Positions 5,144 through 55,946 of a stretch of DNA of 55,946 nt are shown in pieces. A program made the position numbers and the translations under genes. The notes below the pieces were generated by a model. It saw nothing but the letters and a program-made list of their open reading frames with translations, ran no database searches and had not been told where the DNA came from. The stretch's first letter is position 1. Each line of letters begins with the position of its first letter. Source of the DNA: Nitrospirota bacterium (lineage in GTDB: Bacteria > Nitrospirota > Nitrospiria > SBBL01 > JAADHI01); contig JAJDBV010000070.1 in assembly GCA_029261165.1 (NCBI GenBank), forward strand, positions 1 to 55,946, read 5' to 3'.

Positions 5144-6439
5144 ATGCATGTTTGGCTAATTACAATAGGGGAACCTCTCCCTACTGACGGTAATGGTGGG
5201 GATCGGTTACTTCGTGCTGGCACTCTCGCCATGATGTTGGCCAAGGGTGGGCATGAAGTGGTGTGGTGGTCGTCGACCTTCGATCATGTGCGCAAGCAAC
5301 AGCGTTTTGCTACCGATACCACGCTCCACCTGGAAAGTGGCGTTTTATTAAAGTTGCTGCATGGTTGTGGTTATACACACAATAAGTCACTTCTGCGAAT
5401 GATTGATCATACAATTCTCGCACGGAAATTTTCGTGCCAGGCTGAAGAGATGCACTGCCCACATGTTATACTTTGTTCCCTTCCACCTCTGGAACTACCG
5501 ATAGCCGTTACAAGCTATGGCAAGTTGCATGGTGTCCCAGTGATATTGGATGTGAGGGATCTCTGGCCGGATATCTTCCTGGAGGTTGTACCACGGTGGT
5601 TGCGGCCTTTGATGAAGCTTGGGCTTACTCCAATTTGGAGGCAGGCGCGTACTGCGTGCCAAAATGCGTTTGCCATCACGGGGAATTCTCCTGGATTTGT
5701 AGAATGGGGGCTTAGACGTGCTCAGCGTTCGGCCACGGACCTGGACCACTATTTTCCATTTGGTTACGCAATTCCAATGCTTACGGATGGTGAGCGGGAA
5801 AGTACCAATTATTTCTGGAGTAAATATGCCCTGCACGAAGGAGACGCCGAATTTACGGTTTGCTTCTTTGGCACCTTTAGCAATCAATTTGATCTGGAGG
5901 CCGTAATCGACTCTGCAATAATGCTTCAGGCGGAAGGTGCGGGTGTCCGGTTTGTATTGTGCGGGGCGGGAGAACGTTTAAAAGCTTTGAAAACCAGGGC
6001 TAGGGGTTGTAACTCTGTTATTTTCCCGGGTTGGGTAGGCCGGGCCGAGATTTGGACCCTCATGGCACTTTCGGATGTAGGGATTGCGCCTTATCGAAAT
6101 CACGCGGGGTTTGTTGACAATTTGCCCAACAAACCTATTGAGTATATGGCGGGCGGACTCCCCGTCGTATCTGGTCTTCATGGGTATCTTGAAGAATTCC
6201 TAGACCACAACCAGTGTGGTGTAAACTACACACTTGGTGATGCGCGATCACTACGTGACGTTATTGTATGTTTGAAGGAGAATAGGGCGCAAGTACGCAT
6301 GATGTCTAAGAAAGCATGCCAGGTATTTTCAGAAAAATTTGACGCCGAAAAGGTTTACGGTAAAATGATGGTGTATTTACGAGATGTCATTGCGGCCTAT
6401 TCTGTACGATCCATGCTTAGGAAGGATCATGAAAACTGA
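5144..6439 (+). CDS. GT4-family glycosyltransferase (WbuB-like)
   Basis: 431 residues. The N-terminal half begins MHVWLITIGEPLPTDG and carries VILDVRDLWPD, a motif shared with WbuB-like GT-B transferases that add amino sugars to lipid-linked acceptors. The C-terminal half has the nucleotide-sugar site, with FFGTFSNQFDLEAVI, FVLCGAGE and the E-x7-E-like region around FVDNLPNKPIEYMAGGLPVV. The fold and class are clear; donor and acceptor are not. Base composition becomes noticeably more GC-rich from this gene on than in 1-5,090. The end overlaps the next gene by 11 nt, indicating an operon. Confidence 0.85.
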   Translation: MHVWLITIGEPLPTDGNGGDRLLRAGTLAMMLAKGGHEVVWWSSTFDHVRKQQRFATDTTLHLESGVLLKLLHGCGYTHNKSLLRMIDHTILARKFSCQAEEMHCPHVILCSLPPLELPIAVTSYGKLHGVPVILDVRDLWPDIFLEVVPRWLRPLMKLGLTPIWRQARTACQNAFAITGNSPGFVEWGLRRAQRSATDLDHYFPFGYAIPMLTDGERESTNYFWSKYALHEGDAEFTVCFFGTFSNQFDLEAVIDSAIMLQAEGAGVRFVLCGAGERLKALKTRARGCNSVIFPGWVGRAEIWTLMALSDVGIAPYRNHAGFVDNLPNKPIEYMAGGLPVVSGLHGYLEEFLDHNQCGVNYTLGDARSLRDVIVCLKENRAQVRMMSKKACQVFSEKFDAEKVYGKMMVYLRDVIAAYSVRSMLRKDHEN

Positions 6440-19261: not shown

Positions 19262-19450
19262 GATTAAAGGGTGTCCCTGCCTTGTGCGTAGGTGGTTTGT
19301 CTTCAAACCTAACAACGACAGCAAGGGGGCCGAGTCCAAGGAGACTGTGTGCACGTTCCGCCCCAAGTGGAAAAGCCTAACGTCTTCGTCTTGGTGCCCA
19401 CCTAATTACCCGGGTTTGAGCTGATCGCCCTTACGGCAATGCGGGGACCT
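19262..19450 (+). ncRNA. ssrS: 6S RNA
   Basis: About 185 nt between zapA and rarA, the classical location. The 5' end (GGTGTCCCTGC from 19269) pairs with the 3' end (GCGGGGACC, 19441-19449), and GTAGGTGG near 19288 pairs with CCCACCTA near 19400, giving the long closing stem. A large internal bulge with GGGCCGAGTCC and CGTTCCGCCCC-like strands resembles the open-promoter mimic that traps sigma-70 RNA polymerase. TTTTGTTTT after the closing stem would end transcription. Exact ends are estimated. Confidence 0.85.
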
Positions 19451-19493
19451 TTTGTTTTAATCCGGGTCATTTCCTGGATCTATTCCAGATAAA

Positions 19494-47301: not shown

Positions 47302-49584
47302 ATGTCAATTTATTACGCACATTCTGGTCCTAAAAATAGTTCTTTTCCAGATAACAGCAAGGAGGACTGGCACTTGCTCCGAGAGCACCTTGCCTCAGTG
47401 GGCAAAGAAGCCGCAAAAAAAGCGGCCTTTTGGGAAGGAGAAGCCGAAGCAGAACTCGCAGGGCTTTTACACGATTTGGGCAAGTACGCATTCAGTTTTC
47501 AAAAAAGGCTGGAGGGCAAAGCGAGTGGTGTCAATCACTGGTCTCAGGGGTCGTACTGGGCTTGGAAGAACGAGGCCCATCTAGCAGCTTTTGCAATTTA
47601 TGGACACCATGTGGGCATTCCATCTTGTGCAGATTTGAGTGGCCTAGGAAAATATCCAGATGATGAACGTCGAACATGGAATGTAACGGAGGAACTCTCT
47701 GAACTGAAAAACCGCTTCGAACAAGACGGACTCTCTCTCCCAATCATAAAACCAACAACCATTCCAGTTAAAGAAAAAACGCGGATTGCGATGGCCGTCC
47801 GCATGTTGTTTTCTGCGCTCTGTGATGCTGACTTTATCGATACAGAAGCACATTTTAATCAGTACTTTCCTGAATCCCGACCCAAAGCGCCGCAGCTTCA
47901 AGCAGAAAAAGCGTTGAAGTTACTCCTGAATCACATAAATGGAAAAGCAAAACAAAAAGATGCGAAAGCTCAGAGGGTCTATGAGACCCGCCAATTGGTG
48001 CTTCACGATTGCCTTAATCAAGCGGAAACTAATGGGCGTCTTTTTACCCTGACAGCACCCACGGGGTCCGGGAAAACATTGTCATCCCTGGCCTTCGCTT
48101 TAAAACACTCTTCGGTTCATCACCTTCGACGCATCATCATTGTGATTCCTTATCTCAGTATTATCGAGCAAACGGCAAAAGAACTGAGAGAAATATTCGG
48201 TCCTGTTTTTGGAGAGCAATACATCCTTGAACATCACAGCATGGCGGACCGAACTCGGACAGAAACCAAGGATCAGGAAGAAAAAGATGCTGAAGACGAA
48301 ATGGAACGAAACCGGAGATCCCTCTCCCAAAACTGGGATGCACCCTTAATTGTGACAACCTCAGTTCAATTTTTTGAAAGCCTATTTTCAAATAGATCAA
48401 CGACTTGTCGCAAGCTCCACAATATTGCCAAATCGGTTGTCTACTTTGACGAGGTTCAAACACTGCCTCCTGATTTAGCCGTTTCGACACTGGAAACCCT
48501 GAATGCCCTGATGCAGGATTACGGTGTGACCGTTGTTTTTGGTACGGCAACGCAGCCCGCCTTTAAGTCATTATCAGTGTCTATCTCTGGTGGATGGCAG
48601 CCGAAAGAAATACTGAATGATACTGAAAAAATATTCAGCAGCCTTAAAAGGATTATGCCGGTTTGGCCCTCGTCACAAAAAGAAAGAATGGAATGGGCTG
48701 AAGTTGCAAGTGAATTGGCACAACGAAACCAAGCACTTTGTATTGTAAATTTAAAAAAACATGCAGCAGAACTGACTCAGGAAATGCTTAAAGCCATTCC
48801 TGAAGAATATAAAACATCTCTTTTTCATTTGAGTACCGCACTCTGTCCTATGCACCGGCAAGCAATTTTAAAGGAGGTTCGCGCAAAGCTGAAAAACGAA
48901 GATCGAGTTTATCTTATAGCGACACAATGTATCGAGGCGGGGGTCGATATTGATTTTCCCGTTGTGTGGCGGGCGATAGGACCATTGGAGGCCTTGGCAC
49001 AAGGCTTCGGTCGTTGCAATCGGGAAGGACGATTACGGCCGGAACAATGTGAAGCAAAGATATTTATCCCGATGGATGATCAGATTCCGATGCCTGATTA
49101 TGACCAAGCCACCTCCATTGCAAGTACATATTTTTGGAAAGAAGATCTTCAATCTCAAAAAGTATTTGACAAATATTTTAAAAAACTATACAGTAACATA
49201 AATATTATGGGAGGCGGAGGCATCACGCAACAAATGCTGAAAACAGCAATGGGAGAATTGGATTTTCCAGAGATTTCAAAAAAATATCGGCTCATTGATA
49301 GTGACACCATCTCTGTCGTTGTGCCGTACAAAAAGGGGGAAGATATTGGCCGAAAATTAAAACAAAAGGGACTTAATATGAAAGCCTTGCGTGCCCTCAT
49401 GCACAAGGCACAGCCCTATGTGGTCAATGTCTACCGGAATCAACTGCTTTGGAATCAAGAGATAAAGTCCAGCGTAGACCCCGTCCCCGGTGATCTAAAG
49501 GGCGGATGGTATCTCTGGACGAGAACGTACGATGAGAGAATAGGCATCTTCACAAAATTATCGGATGAAGAATGGGTCGTATGA
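47302..49584 (+). CDS. cas3: CRISPR-associated helicase/nuclease Cas3 (type I-C)
   Basis: 760 residues with an N-terminal HD nuclease and an SF2 helicase. HD features: the first His in YYAHSG, GLLHDLGKYAFSFQKRL, the HHVG segment and CDADFIDTEAHF. Helicase features: Walker A LTAPTGSGKTLSSLAFAL, motif II YFDEVQTLPPDLA, motif III FGTATQ and motif VI GFGRCNREGR. It degrades target DNA recruited by Cascade. All key residues that I can see are intact. It heads the operon, with cas5c starting 28 bp downstream. Confidence 0.95.
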   Translation: MSIYYAHSGPKNSSFPDNSKEDWHLLREHLASVGKEAAKKAAFWEGEAEAELAGLLHDLGKYAFSFQKRLEGKASGVNHWSQGSYWAWKNEAHLAAFAIYGHHVGIPSCADLSGLGKYPDDERRTWNVTEELSELKNRFEQDGLSLPIIKPTTIPVKEKTRIAMAVRMLFSALCDADFIDTEAHFNQYFPESRPKAPQLQAEKALKLLLNHINGKAKQKDAKAQRVYETRQLVLHDCLNQAETNGRLFTLTAPTGSGKTLSSLAFALKHSSVHHLRRIIIVIPYLSIIEQTAKELREIFGPVFGEQYILEHHSMADRTRTETKDQEEKDAEDEMERNRRSLSQNWDAPLIVTTSVQFFESLFSNRSTTCRKLHNIAKSVVYFDEVQTLPPDLAVSTLETLNALMQDYGVTVVFGTATQPAFKSLSVSISGGWQPKEILNDTEKIFSSLKRIMPVWPSSQKERMEWAEVASELAQRNQALCIVNLKKHAAELTQEMLKAIPEEYKTSLFHLSTALCPMHRQAILKEVRAKLKNEDRVYLIATQCIEAGVDIDFPVVWRAIGPLEALAQGFGRCNREGRLRPEQCEAKIFIPMDDQIPMPDYDQATSIASTYFWKEDLQSQKVFDKYFKKLYSNINIMGGGGITQQMLKTAMGELDFPEISKKYRLIDSDTISVVVPYKKGEDIGRKLKQKGLNMKALRALMHKAQPYVVNVYRNQLLWNQEIKSSVDPVPGDLKGGWYLWTRTYDERIGIFTKLSDEEWVV

Positions 49585-49612
49585 TTTAACCGAACAAAAA
49601 AGGAGGGTTTAC

Positions 49613-50326
49613 ATGGGCATAAAATTATTGGTTCGAGGGCCTTTCGCCTGTTTTTCCCGCCCTGAGATGAAGGTGGAGCGCATGAGTTACCCTGCTCTTA
49701 CGCCTTCTGCGGCAAGGGGCATATTGGAAGCCATCCTGTATAAACCGCAATTTCGCTGGAAAATCCGCCGTATCCATGTATTGAACCCGATCAAGTTCAT
49801 TGGCCTGAGACGCAACGAAGTCCAAGGCAAAATTTCCACGTCAAAGGTCAAGCAGTGGATGAAACGGAAAGGCATTCCAAGCCCCCTCTTTGCCGATGCG
49901 ATGGGGCGAGACCAGGGGGGAGAAGGTATTGGCCGCACGCAACGGAACACGGTTGCGCTCAAAGATGTTGCCTATGTCATTGAAGCTGATGCCTGGGTGC
50001 GTCCTGAAATCAAGGAAACACCCCGAAAATATTACGAGTGCTTCCAAAGAAGAGTGAATCGCGGTCAGTGTTTTTCTCAGCCGGTTCTCGGTTGTCGCGA
50101 ATTTGTCGGCTACTTTGAATCTGCGCCGGAACACTTTGAAACGATCTCTGACACACGAAATCTCGGCCTCATGCTTTACGATGTTTTTGATCTAGATAAG
50201 CAAAGCGACGGTTATGCTAAGCCCTTTATTACCTTGTTCAGCCCGGAAATGGAAAATGGCGTGATTGAAGTTGAGGACTATGTTTCGGTCAAAAAAAGAC
50301 ACATTGCGGGAGGGTACGATGCTTGA
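49613..50326 (+). CDS. cas5c: Cas5c (Cas5d), crRNA-processing endonuclease of type I-C
   Basis: 237 residues from ATG 49613, with AGGAGGG upstream. GIKLLVRGPFACFSRPEMKV followed by ERMSYPALTPSAARGILEAI is the Cas5d start. In type I-C this protein replaces Cas6: it cuts the repeat RNA at the base of the stem and stays bound to the 5' handle. The C-terminal half keeps NRGQCFSQPVLGCREFVGYF. The gene overlaps cas8c by 8 nt. Confidence 0.94.
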   Translation: MGIKLLVRGPFACFSRPEMKVERMSYPALTPSAARGILEAILYKPQFRWKIRRIHVLNPIKFIGLRRNEVQGKISTSKVKQWMKRKGIPSPLFADAMGRDQGGEGIGRTQRNTVALKDVAYVIEADAWVRPEIKETPRKYYECFQRRVNRGQCFSQPVLGCREFVGYFESAPEHFETISDTRNLGLMLYDVFDLDKQSDGYAKPFITLFSPEMENGVIEVEDYVSVKKRHIAGGYDA

Positions 50327-53060: not shown

Positions 53061-53687
53061 ATGGGTGATGTGGAACTCATTCACATCTCATCGCTCAATC
53101 AATATGGATACTGTCCTCGCCGCTGTGCGCTGATTTATGTCGAGCAGTCCTTTGATGAAAATATCTACACGATGCGTGGAAATGATTTGCATGAGCGGAC
53201 GGACAAACCCGAAGAAAGTGGATGGGAGGAAGGGATTCGGGTAGAGAGGGCGCTACCGCTTTGGCACACGCAATTGGGCCTTATCGGGAAAGCAGATGTT
53301 GTCGAGTTCCACGGAAACACCCCTTATCCGGTGGAATACAAATCGGGCCGTTTGCGAAAGTTTACAAATGACGACCTTCAACTCTGTGCGCAGGCAATTT
53401 GCCTCGAAGAAATGACCGGAAAGGAGGTTTCAAAAGGCGCGATCTTTCATCATGGTTCGCGAAGGCGACGAGAGGTCGTTTTTCGTCAAGACTTACGTGG
53501 CCTTGTTAAGGAAACGGTTCAAAACATCCGGGAACTGCTTTCATCACAGGTTATTCCACCACCTGTCAATGACCAGCGATGTTCGAATTGCTCTCTACAA
53601 GAGTCATGTATGCCGTCGGCGGGTGGAAAACAGGACCAGACGCTATTCGCACAGAAGGAGCTTTTTCAGATTCCTTATTTGAGCTGA
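53061..53687 (+). CDS. cas4: Cas4, RecB-like nuclease of CRISPR adaptation
   Basis: 208 residues. Cysteines of the 4Fe-4S cluster are at YCPRRC and near the end (RCSNCSLQESCMP). The RecB-type nuclease core is LIGKADVVEFHGNTPYPVEY KSG, followed by the QLCAQAICLEEMTG motif with the QxxxY-like position occupied by I. Cas4 trims prespacers and sets PAM orientation together with Cas1-Cas2. It begins three bases after cas7c. It normally abuts cas1, but here a gap of about 500 bp follows. Confidence 0.93.
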   Translation: MGDVELIHISSLNQYGYCPRRCALIYVEQSFDENIYTMRGNDLHERTDKPEESGWEEGIRVERALPLWHTQLGLIGKADVVEFHGNTPYPVEYKSGRLRKFTNDDLQLCAQAICLEEMTGKEVSKGAIFHHGSRRRREVVFRQDLRGLVKETVQNIRELLSSQVIPPPVNDQRCSNCSLQESCMPSAGGKQDQTLFAQKELFQIPYLS

Positions 53688-53688
53688 T

Positions 53689-53726
53689 GTATCCACCCCG
53701 CTCTGTGAGGGGGTGAGGATTGAAAT
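53689..53726 (+). repeat. Solitary diverged CRISPR repeat between cas4 and cas1
   Basis: It begins two bases after the cas4 stop. The last 15 conserved bases, GGGTGAGGATTGAAA, are identical to the array repeat, so the crRNA handle is preserved. The first half differs. The stem is CACCCC (53694-53699) with GGGGTG (53710-53715), against CACCCG/CGGGTG in the array: the innermost pair changed on both sides and still pairs. It should still be cut by Cas5c. No second good repeat follows. Confidence 0.75.
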
Positions 53727-54186
53727 ACTGTCTAGTTATTTCTTGATATCATATGCCCCTCGCGGCGGGCACTAGTAAGAAGCCGAGGGCAGCCAGCCCA
53801 TTGTTGGAGCAGTCATTTACATCGAATTCAAAGAGAACATCTGTTGTGTGGAAAAGGGAGTGTGGCGGAATAGGTAGACGCAGGAAGTGCAGTGAGAGCA
53901 AGGTGCCTGGAGCCTGGGTACACATTACCTCGACCAAGAGGGGAGAAAAAAGAGAGCTGAAATGCTTGTACACTGCAAGGTCTGTCAGTTAGTAGAGGCT
54001 ATTATGCTGACAGTAGGACATCTTGGCGTCCGAGATCCCCAAAAAACTTGCTCATATATGGTGCAAATCCATATCTACCCTTTTCCACACAACGCCGGTG
54101 GGTCTGTCAGGTGTTTGAAAAAGGAGAAAACAATCAAAGTGATCCGCTTGTGATCAGACGACAAGTAAAAGGGTTGAGAATTGGCT
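53727..54186 (+). other. Unexplained insert between cas4 and cas1
   Basis: About 460 bp in a place where genes usually overlap. It begins with the spacer-like sequence after the diverged repeat (ACTGTCTAGTTATTTCTTGA). At 53856-53881 it holds a segment matching the 5' part of tRNA-Leu. At 53982-54013 there is a long hairpin, CTGTCAG...CTGACAG with extra inner pairs. Frames exist (53753-53992, 79 codons, basic) but lack ribosome sites and motifs. I favour a non-coding or regulatory locus, possibly related to CreTA or CreR guide RNAs; decay of an old insertion is the alternative. Confidence 0.5.
53856..53881 (+). other. tRNA-Leu 5'-half-like segment
   Basis: GGGAGTG, TG, then a D arm with stem GCG/CGC and loop GAATAGGTAGA: 26 bases that match the start of bacterial tRNA-Leu. 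After this the anticodon and T arms cannot be formed and no GTTCGAATC-type loop is present. It is a fragment or mimic, not a functional tRNA. Confidence 0.45.
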
Positions 54187-55218
54187 ATGCACCAGCTATT
54201 AAATACCTTGTACATCACGACCGAAGGGGCCTATCTCCACCTCGACCACGACACTCTGAAGGTTGAGATCGAAAAAGAGACCCGGCTGCAGGTGCCTGTT
54301 CATCATCTGGGCGGGATTGTCTGCTTTGGCAACATCATGCTGAGTCCGGCAGCGATGGCGCGTTGCGCGGCGGACGGTCGCTTTGTGGTGCTTCTTGATC
54401 GAAATGGCCGGTTTAAGGCCCGTGTTGAAGGGCCGGTTTCCGGTAATGTTCTCTTGAGGAGTGCGCAACATGAGGCAATGACCGATAAAGAAAAATCACT
54501 CGATATCGCTAAAAATATGGTCGCGGGGAAGATACAAAACACAAGGCAGATTGTCCTCCGTGGTGCAAGAGAGGCGAAAGCTGAAGACGATGAAAGAAAC
54601 CTGAAAAAGACCTCAGAATCACTTGCAGGTGCCTTGTCCCGACTTCCGAAGGCCAACAATATTGACCAGGTTCGGGGAATAGAAGGAGAATCTGCAAGAG
54701 CCTATTTTTCGTCGTTTGATTGCATGGTGCGTGAGGATCGGGAAACCTTCCGTTTTAATGGCCGAAACCGCCGTCCGCCCCGTGACTCAGTGAACGCCCT
54801 GCTCTCTTTTCTCTATGCGTTACTGATGAATGACTGTGTGGCCGGGGCGGAAGGCGTGGGACTTGATCCGCAAATGGGTTTTCTCCATGCGATCCGACCC
54901 GGGAGGGCCGCGCTGGCCCTGGATCTTATGGAAGAGGTTCGCTCCGTGCTGGCGGACCGCTTGGCCCTGACATTGATCAACCGGAAGCAGATCCAGGCGA
55001 AACACTTTATCGACAGGCCGGGGGGCGCGGTGCATTTGGATGACCGCGGACGGAAGGAAGTTGTCATTGCCTACCAAAAACGGAAGCAGGAAGAGATTAC
55101 GCACCCGCTTTTGAATCAAAAAATGCCGCTTGGCCTGGTTCCGCATGTGCAGGCACGTTTACTTGCCCGTACTCTGAGGGGCGACATGGCAGCGTATATC
55201 CCTTATCTTTATCGTTGA
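54187..55218 (+). CDS. cas1: Cas1, CRISPR integrase (type I-C)
   Basis: 343 residues from ATG 54187; a TTG at 54181 is less likely. [20 protein letters not shown] is the usual I-C start. The metal-binding residues appear in [12 protein letters not shown] (Glu), [20 protein letters not shown] (His, with Asp and Glu in the last part). YAYLM-type helix content is present in [20 protein letters not shown]. With Cas2 it inserts new spacers at the leader end. All catalytic positions look intact. Confidence 0.95.
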
Positions 55219-55695: not shown

Positions 55696-55946
55696 GTAGC
55701 ACCCGTCCTTCGGGGCGGGTGAGGATTGAAACTCTACAGGCCATAGGGGGAGCACGGTCGCCCTTGATGGTAGCACCCGTCCTTCGGGGCGGGTGAGGAT
55801 TGAAACCCCTGAGACATCGACCTGGGCTTGCATTGAAATATGTAGCACCCGTCCTTCGGGGCGGGTGAGGATTGAAACAAACCCCTCCCCCGGAACATTC
55901 TTTGATTGCATGATGTAGCACCCGTCCTTCGGGGCGGGTGAGGATT
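55696..55946 (+). CRISPR. Type I-C CRISPR array, start (runs off the window)
   Basis: Three complete 37-bp repeats (55696-55732, 55770-55806, 55842-55878) and a fourth cut by the window end (from 55915). They are identical over the bases seen. Each starts GTAGCACCCGTCC and ends GGGTGAGGATTGAAAC, with a stem CACCCGTCC/GGGCGGGTG closed by TTCG. Spacers are 37, 35 and 36 bp. No degeneration at this end, as expected for the leader-proximal side. Confidence 0.98.

Follow-up and report, generated by a model that had tools for sequence, protein, structure and literature searches.

A candidate CreR-like guide between cas4 and cas1 of a subtype I-C CRISPR operon, beside a phage-type tRNA-Leu-like RNA

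The stretch of DNA analysed here (the window; 55,946 nucleotides, contig C67 of genome G000, a Nitrospirota bacterium) carries a complete subtype I-C operon in the order cas3-cas5c-cas8c-cas7-cas4-gap-cas1-cas2-array, the subtype being assigned from NCBIfam. The window also holds a 6S RNA at 19271-19451 (Rfam RF00013). The parts of the operon on which the following analysis draws are:

47302..49584, + strand: cas3 (TIGR01587, TIGR01596), which holds the predicted target promoter
49565..50326, + strand: cas5c (Cas_Cas5d, TIGR01876), the expected repeat-processing nuclease and the first gene behind the predicted internal promoter
53061..53687, + strand: cas4 (TIGR00372)
54187..55218, + strand: cas1 (type I-C Cas1c, TIGR03640)
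55696..55946, + strand: start of the regular I-C CRISPR array (RF01322)

Between the cas4 stop codon at 53687 and the cas1 start, which is either TTG at 54181 or ATG at 54187, there is a gap of 493 or 499 bp, respectively; the remaining cas junctions overlap or span at most 57 bp. The initial annotation had the coordinates of this gap right and singled it out as abnormally wide, as is borne out by some 20 Nitrospira-type I-C loci in which cas4 and cas1 are separated by about 4 bp. Among close relatives, an enlarged gap is present only in three of the same family: G006 (loci L039/L121; 507 bp), G001 (loci L040/L122; 594 bp), and the truncated G005, where the contig is broken and cas4 is missing. 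In I-C loci further removed from the window, other genes have been inserted independently at the cas4-cas1 junction (PIN/MazE-type, HEPN/nucleotidyltransferase, BRO-like), implying that the junction tolerates, or attracts, cargo. Recurrent independent insertions of toxin-antitoxin or BRO-like genes are seen at L039, L040, L074, L075, L076, L077, L083, L088, and L107. The gap of the window contains the following features:

53689..53726, + strand: psiR1, the first degenerate I-C repeat, with stem CACCCC/GGGGTG and the 11-nt handle AGGATTGAAAT; conserved in place in G006 and G001
53727..53749, + strand: psiS, the spacer-like part, ACTGTCTAGTTATTTCTTGATAT, its first 15 nt being the conserved seed
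53750..53785, + strand: psiR2, a candidate second degenerate repeat with stem TGCCC/GGGCA; weak in the window, strong in G006
53819..53842, + strand: toxin-antitoxin leader remnant ACATCGAATTCAAAGAGAACATCT, homologous by alignment to the antitoxin leader in G001
53843..54093, + strand: the entire tRNA-Leu-like structured RNA, with a 16-bp closing stem (53843-53858 with 54078-54093)
53863..53881, + strand: tRNA-Leu-like D arm TGGCGGAATAGGTAGACGC, with 27 nt identical to a cyanophage tRNA-Leu
53896..54053, + strand: insert domain replacing the anticodon arm, closed by GAGCAAG/CTTGCTC (53896-53902 with 54047-54053)
54056..54074, + strand: T arm ATATGG-TGCAAAT-CCATAT, with a 6-bp stem and a loop that carries G55, a feature shared with the phage family

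psiR1 shares 15 identical 3′ bases, GGGTGAGGATTGAAA, with the array repeat GTAGCACCCGTCCTTCGGGGCGGGTGAGGATTGAAAC, its final base being T, not C, and none of 2000 dinucleotide shuffles of the region gave as good a local alignment; the Rfam CRISPR-DR9 model matches it only below threshold (E=0.5). The innermost stem pair has changed from G:C in the array (CACCCG/CGGGTG) to C:G in psiR1 (CACCCC/GGGGTG), which folds at −14.3 kcal/mol. Alignment, shuffles, and fold thus uphold the earlier description of a repeat whose 3′ handle is intact and whose stem has changed in a compensated way. That description also held the repeat to be lone, which is probably wrong. The second repeat of G006, ATTGCATCTGTCCTTCGGCTAGATGC, begins 26 nt after the first, keeps the array-repeat loop GTCCTTCGG, and has a fully compensated stem; 10 of 2000 shuffles scored as well (P 0.005), and its fold has a z score of −4.97 as against +0.34, a stability that is not unusual, for psiR2 of the window. 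The latter, TGCCCCTCGCGGCGGGCA, lies ∼23 nt after psiR1 and was equalled by 173 of 5000 shuffles (P 0.035), which on its own is only suggestive of a true second repeat. Viewed together, the two genomes indicate that the window repeat is probably not solitary, a more decayed second copy standing behind psiR1. The repeat-spacer-repeat layout is that of the CreA/CreR mini-CRISPRs (PMC8501985).

Comparison of the cas4-cas1 gaps of related I-C loci, a check proposed in the initial annotation, found handle and seed conserved in G006, whose handle AGGATTGAAAT is exactly that of the window, and a decayed repeat in G001 with a stem that is different yet paired (CCTTC/GAAGG); stems are thus re-paired with different bases in all three genomes (G000, G006, and G001), the only ones from which this guide unit is known. 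Directly behind the identical handle, 13 of the first 15 spacer-like bases are identical between G000 and G006 (binomial P ∼0.0003 at a background of 0.4). The similarity of the spacers fades past ∼25 bases, and handle plus seed form the best conserved stretch of the gap between these two genomes, which belong to different genera. Their cas genes agree at only 35% of 4-fold degenerate sites (183/522; cas4 34%, cas1 41%), i.e. synonymous divergence is saturated.

Downstream of the repeat, G006 has a HicB/HicA-like pair in which the HicA frame is interrupted by a stop and HicB is assigned by resemblance only (Pfam is silent), and G001 has an antitoxin/ParE pair. In both copies of the HicA-like frame (L039:5796-5970 and L119:3297-3465) one and the same codon is an in-frame stop, as TAG in the one genome and TAA in the other, and an open, conserved frame follows it. 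In the G001 locus the cas4 tail, the decayed repeat, and the antitoxin start are present twice (L040:3586-3740 and 5364-5480), a partial duplication.

Such neighbors bear on the possibility that the unit is a nonfunctional relic, i.e. what is left in the cas4-cas1 gap of an old ectopic mini-array or array end, at a site that repeatedly receives toxin-antitoxin genes and phage elements. The weakness of psiR2 in the window, the single decayed repeat left in G001, a G006 guide without a target (below), and a junction that has taken up both a phage-type RNA and toxin-antitoxin pairs (HicA; ParE with its antitoxin) are all consistent with a relic. We nevertheless consider it unlikely, given that no part of the gap is better conserved than handle and seed although divergence is saturated, that the stems are compensated, and that the spacer-like part matches an internal promoter of the operon beyond what shuffled and real-spacer controls give. 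That match lies in cas3:

49180..49194, − strand: predicted guide target, protospacer ACTGTATAGTTTTTT, PAM side GTT; the sole other match in the genome
49166..49194, + strand: predicted internal promoter TTGACA-17-TACAGT at the cas3 3′ end, ahead of cas5-8-7-4-guide-1-2

The bases at positions 6 and 12 are flipped out in type I effectors. The match was found with these two positions ignored and with no PAM requirement: over positions 1-15 the guide agrees with 49180-49194 at 13 of 13 remaining positions, and mismatches occur only at 6 and 12. In the 2.9-Mb genome the pattern ACNGTNTAGTTNTTT occurs only in the guide itself and at the cas3 site, ∼4.5 kb upstream in the same operon. Composition-matched shuffled guides matched the operon as well in 2 of 4000 cases. 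Both guide and target region are AT-rich, which favors chance matches, and several targets and matching schemes had been tried before the cas3 site stood out. As a control, real I-C array spacers matched somewhere in the operon in 1 of 967 cases and in the promoter segment in none (0/967).

Target site and predicted promoter coincide to the base, guide position 1 falling on the last base of the −10 element. Within 9 kb, 11 promoter-like matches were found as against 9.3 expected by chance, and this one, a consensus match inside coding sequence, has the joint best σ70-like score (10/12) and the sole perfect −35; it sits in the 51-nt stretch of cas3 with the lowest GC content (13.7%, versus 44.6% gene-wide).

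The main weakness of the target assignment is the PAM, since the site has GTT and the canonical I-C PAM, TTC, is absent. The seed-only search next to a TTC PAM that the initial annotation had suggested gave no target in the gap, the region upstream of cas3, the whole window, or the G006 and G001 loci, and the cas3 site appears only when the PAM requirement is dropped; trans targets with a TTC PAM in three genomes were fewer than in a reversed-pattern control, with no locus in common. It is on account of this failed PAM test (GTT, not TTC) that we call the guide CreR-like and not a proven CreR member.

The G006 guide matches the promoter of the window at positions 12 and 16, where the window guide mismatches, as expected if spacer and target share ancestry; the fit of both guides is as expected if both derive from a spacer that once matched the cas3 promoter. 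The G006 guide has no target in its own genome, possibly because the cas3-5-8-7 module has been exchanged there: identity to the window is 69-88% for cas4-cas1-cas2, as against 31-54% for the cas3-5-8-7 module of G006 and mostly 30-54% for the effector genes of G006 and G001 together, and such an exchange may have orphaned the guide. In G006, one site whose PAM position reads TGC was set aside as being at chance level, since two of its seed mismatches are not at flipped positions. G019, with a cas3 67% identical, has neither guide nor promoter.

We scanned 80 I-C loci for handles outside arrays, and about a tenth of them have ectopic repeats at gene junctions. In four loci a repeat plus spacer upstream of cas5 matches the locus's own cas5 promoter region:

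L058, Nitrospira: position 12 the sole mismatch; PAM side TTT; 0/2000 shuffles; cas5 as the next gene read from its sequence
L105, Capsulimonadaceae: PAM side TTT; 0/2000 shuffles
L061, Entotheonella: mismatches only at 6 and 12; PAM TTC; 73/2000 on a simple score
L065, Geobacter: 12/15; PAM TTC; 70/2000 shuffles

For L061, L065, and L105 the next gene was identified as cas5 by profile. The matches of L058 and L105 are strong by themselves, and those of L061 and L065 stand at P ∼0.04. A clear two-repeat mini-CRISPR lies between cas7 and cas4 of a Binatota I-C locus (L057:3456-3550), with no target within its contig. Moorella and Desulfovirgula have a single spacerless I-C repeat directly ahead of a cas4 or cas5 ribosome-binding site (L064:5238-5272, L067:3486-3521, L098 near 1848, and L100:1842-1878), possibly a Cas5c autoregulatory cut site. 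Target tests for the ectopic repeats of L057, L064, L067, L098, and L100 gave nothing convincing.

By analogy with the Moorella and Desulfovirgula loci, the window repeat could be a Cas5c cut site without a target, at which operon mRNA would be cleaved between cas4 and cas1, uncoupling or destabilizing the cas1-cas2 mRNA; a compensated stem with a handle is what Cas5c reads. We regard this reading as very unlikely, since it leaves the conservation of the spacer seed and the unique promoter match unexplained.

About half of the gap, overlooked in the initial annotation, is taken up by the tRNA-like RNA. The segment 53843-54093 folds far better than shuffles (z=−4.35), and ARAGORN and the Rfam tRNA models find nothing there. 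Pattern scans of viral contigs (L127-L469) yielded at least 284 distinct relatives in which the D arm is accompanied by a T stem of 6 bp and an acceptor stem of 7 bp. The 284 sequences listed have 159 different acceptor stems and inserts of 47 to 216 nt, encode CCA in five cases, and are called by ARAGORN in three. Across 40 distinct scaffolds, 99.1% of cells pair, compared with 70.9% in shuffles, and covariation is 0.778 versus 0.180; independent evidence comes from the stems only, the search patterns having prescribed the letters of the D arm and T loop.

Like tRNA-Leu and tmRNA, these RNAs have a D arm (identical to that of tRNA-Leu) and a T arm, to which the phage relatives add an acceptor stem of 7 bp. 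Unlike both, they have no anticodon arm and a 47-216-nt insert in its place, a 13-bp acceptor plus T helix, the T-loop TGCAAAT, and a rarely encoded CCA. For two samples of ten loci Rfam gave no match at the elements other than a partial rliG overlap in one (L401). Since no sampled element was called tRNA or tmRNA and rliG covers only part of one relative, we rejected an assignment of the RNA to tRNA, to tmRNA, or to any known Rfam family. Members occur in Listeria phage B025 and in phages of Weissella and Lactobacillus, including Lactobacillus phage LP65, and Listeria phages related to B025, PSA among them, give partial matches; the phage records inspected (B025, LP65, and others) have no RNA annotation at the elements. 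No consistently conserved neighbors were found, only a tendency toward the interval between late regulators and HNH/terminase genes or toward tRNA clusters. These observations point to a large phage RNA family on a tRNA-Leu scaffold, apparently undescribed and absent from Rfam. A tRNA-like match in G094 proved to be a CRISPR spacer matching tRNA-Leu and no family member. In a Nitrospira array that adjoins a Cas4-Cas1 fusion, one spacer (L126, near 1492-1528) matches the D-arm region of tRNA-Leu and is apparently directed against a phage tRNA gene.

The window copy has the D arm, the insert, and the 6-bp T stem with its TGCAAAT loop; its acceptor pairing is only 4/7, and a 16-bp stem is found further out instead. 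Judged by these features, it is a derived relative of the phage family that has lost the normal acceptor pairing and gained an outer stem. A search of 296 Nitrospirota genomes with one spacing class found the RNA only in the window. The 16-bp inverted repeat was also considered as the mark of a transposon or MITE, which was rejected, as no second genome copy and no target duplication were seen. The G001-type leader remnant to the left of the RNA suggests that the RNA probably replaced or broke a toxin-antitoxin pair like that of G001. Our best guess is that the RNA is cargo of phage origin that possibly serves the cas mRNA as a processing element. A more elaborate proposal, which we consider distinctly unlikely, makes the gap a two-part RNA device, in which a CreR-like guide would be joined by a captured phage tRNA-Leu-scaffold RNA whose closing stem was remodelled to work inside the cas mRNA, either as a processing or insulating element between the Cascade and adaptation genes or as a CRISPR-held RNA toxin.

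A role in addiction, with the guide repressing a toxin in the gap (the tRNA-like RNA, or the protein toxins of the relatives) as in CreTA or CrePA, appears highly improbable. Toxin-antitoxin genes do lie directly downstream in G006 and G001, and known CreT RNAs act on tRNA supply (PMC8501985), but no target with PAM and seed is found in the gap of G000, G006, or G001, and the protein toxin-antitoxin pairs of the relatives at the same place carry no guide target. The mini-ORF after the RNA (AAGGAG, spacing 12, GTG ATC CGC TTG TGA) has no doubled rare codons of the CreT kind, the relatives of the tRNA-like RNA live in phages, and the G006 HicA frame has a stop. With no toxin target found, CreTA is unsupported. 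Of the CreA/CreR-like guide RNA originally proposed, the guide half thus finds support, in its CreR form, in seed conservation, compensated stems, and the promoter match; the toxin half falls for want of a target and a CreT-like mini-ORF.

The best explanation, to which we assign a probability of roughly 0.65, is that 53689 to ∼53785 is a decayed repeat-spacer-repeat mini-CRISPR within the cas operon, yielding a crRNA-like, CreR-like guide that would autorepress its own operon. We infer from the sequence that the unit is transcribed and that Cas5c cuts the operon RNA at the repeat stem or stems, giving a predicted guide that starts near 53716 with the 5′ end AGGAUUGAAAU, and that the 11-nt handle would load it into I-C Cascade. 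The first 15 nt of the guide, for which the match is computed, would then bind the cas3-internal promoter at 49166-49194. Since pairing ends after position 15, the promoter would be blocked rather than destroyed, as the CreA/CreR precedent suggests. The position of the promoter ahead of cas5-cas8-cas7-cas4-guide-cas1-cas2 would make the loop one of negative feedback, Cascade and adaptation genes being lowered when free Cascade is plentiful. The neighboring tRNA-like RNA would be a separate phage-derived insertion.

If correct, this proposal would extend guide-based Cas autorepression to subtype I-C, with an in-operon guide acting on a cas3-internal promoter and feedback predicted on cas5-8-7-4-1-2, not on cas3. 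It would also supply a search rule, namely ectopic repeats at I-C gene junctions whose spacers match the cas5 promoter. Independently of how the guide is read, the RNA in the gap exposes a large tRNA-Leu-like phage RNA family with strong covariation.

Among known systems, the solitary repeat units termed Racrs (PMC10651486) likewise present an ectopic repeat mimic as an RNA gene. Unlike the window unit, which lies between cas4 and cas1 and has a conserved seed, Racrs are located on mobile elements (virus or plasmid) away from cas genes. CreA of CreTA (PMC8501985, PMC9458426, PMC10097628) has two diverged repeats around one spacer in a cas locus, a layout that the window shares to the extent that psiR2 is a candidate second repeat, and likewise shows partial complementarity. 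It differs in that neither a target at a toxin promoter nor an RNA toxin resembling CreT was found in the window. In CrePA, a protein toxin is under a CreA guide (PMC12737573). Protein toxin genes adjoin the guide in the relatives only, the window having none, and instead of KilA-N proteins the toxins there are HicA and ParE, each accompanied by an antitoxin of its own and lacking a guide target.

The closest resemblance is to CreR, the cas-regulating RNA of types I-B, I-E, and V-A (PMC13131331; Liu et al., 2023, as cited in PMC12737573), in which the loop senses free Cascade (PMC13131331; PMC12737573). We found no CreR in subtype I-C in the literature searched, which excluded the original 2023 CreR paper's own locus list. 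The candidate unit of the window differs from CreR in its subtype, in the expected processing by Cas5c, in the position of the guide between cas4 and cas1, in a predicted target that is a promoter within the cas3 coding sequence 4.5 kb upstream, and in the non-canonical PAM GTT. In common with CreR, it has one or more degenerate repeats, a conserved handle, a spacer of limited complementarity to a cas promoter, and no toxin target, and the expected outcome is Cas autorepression.
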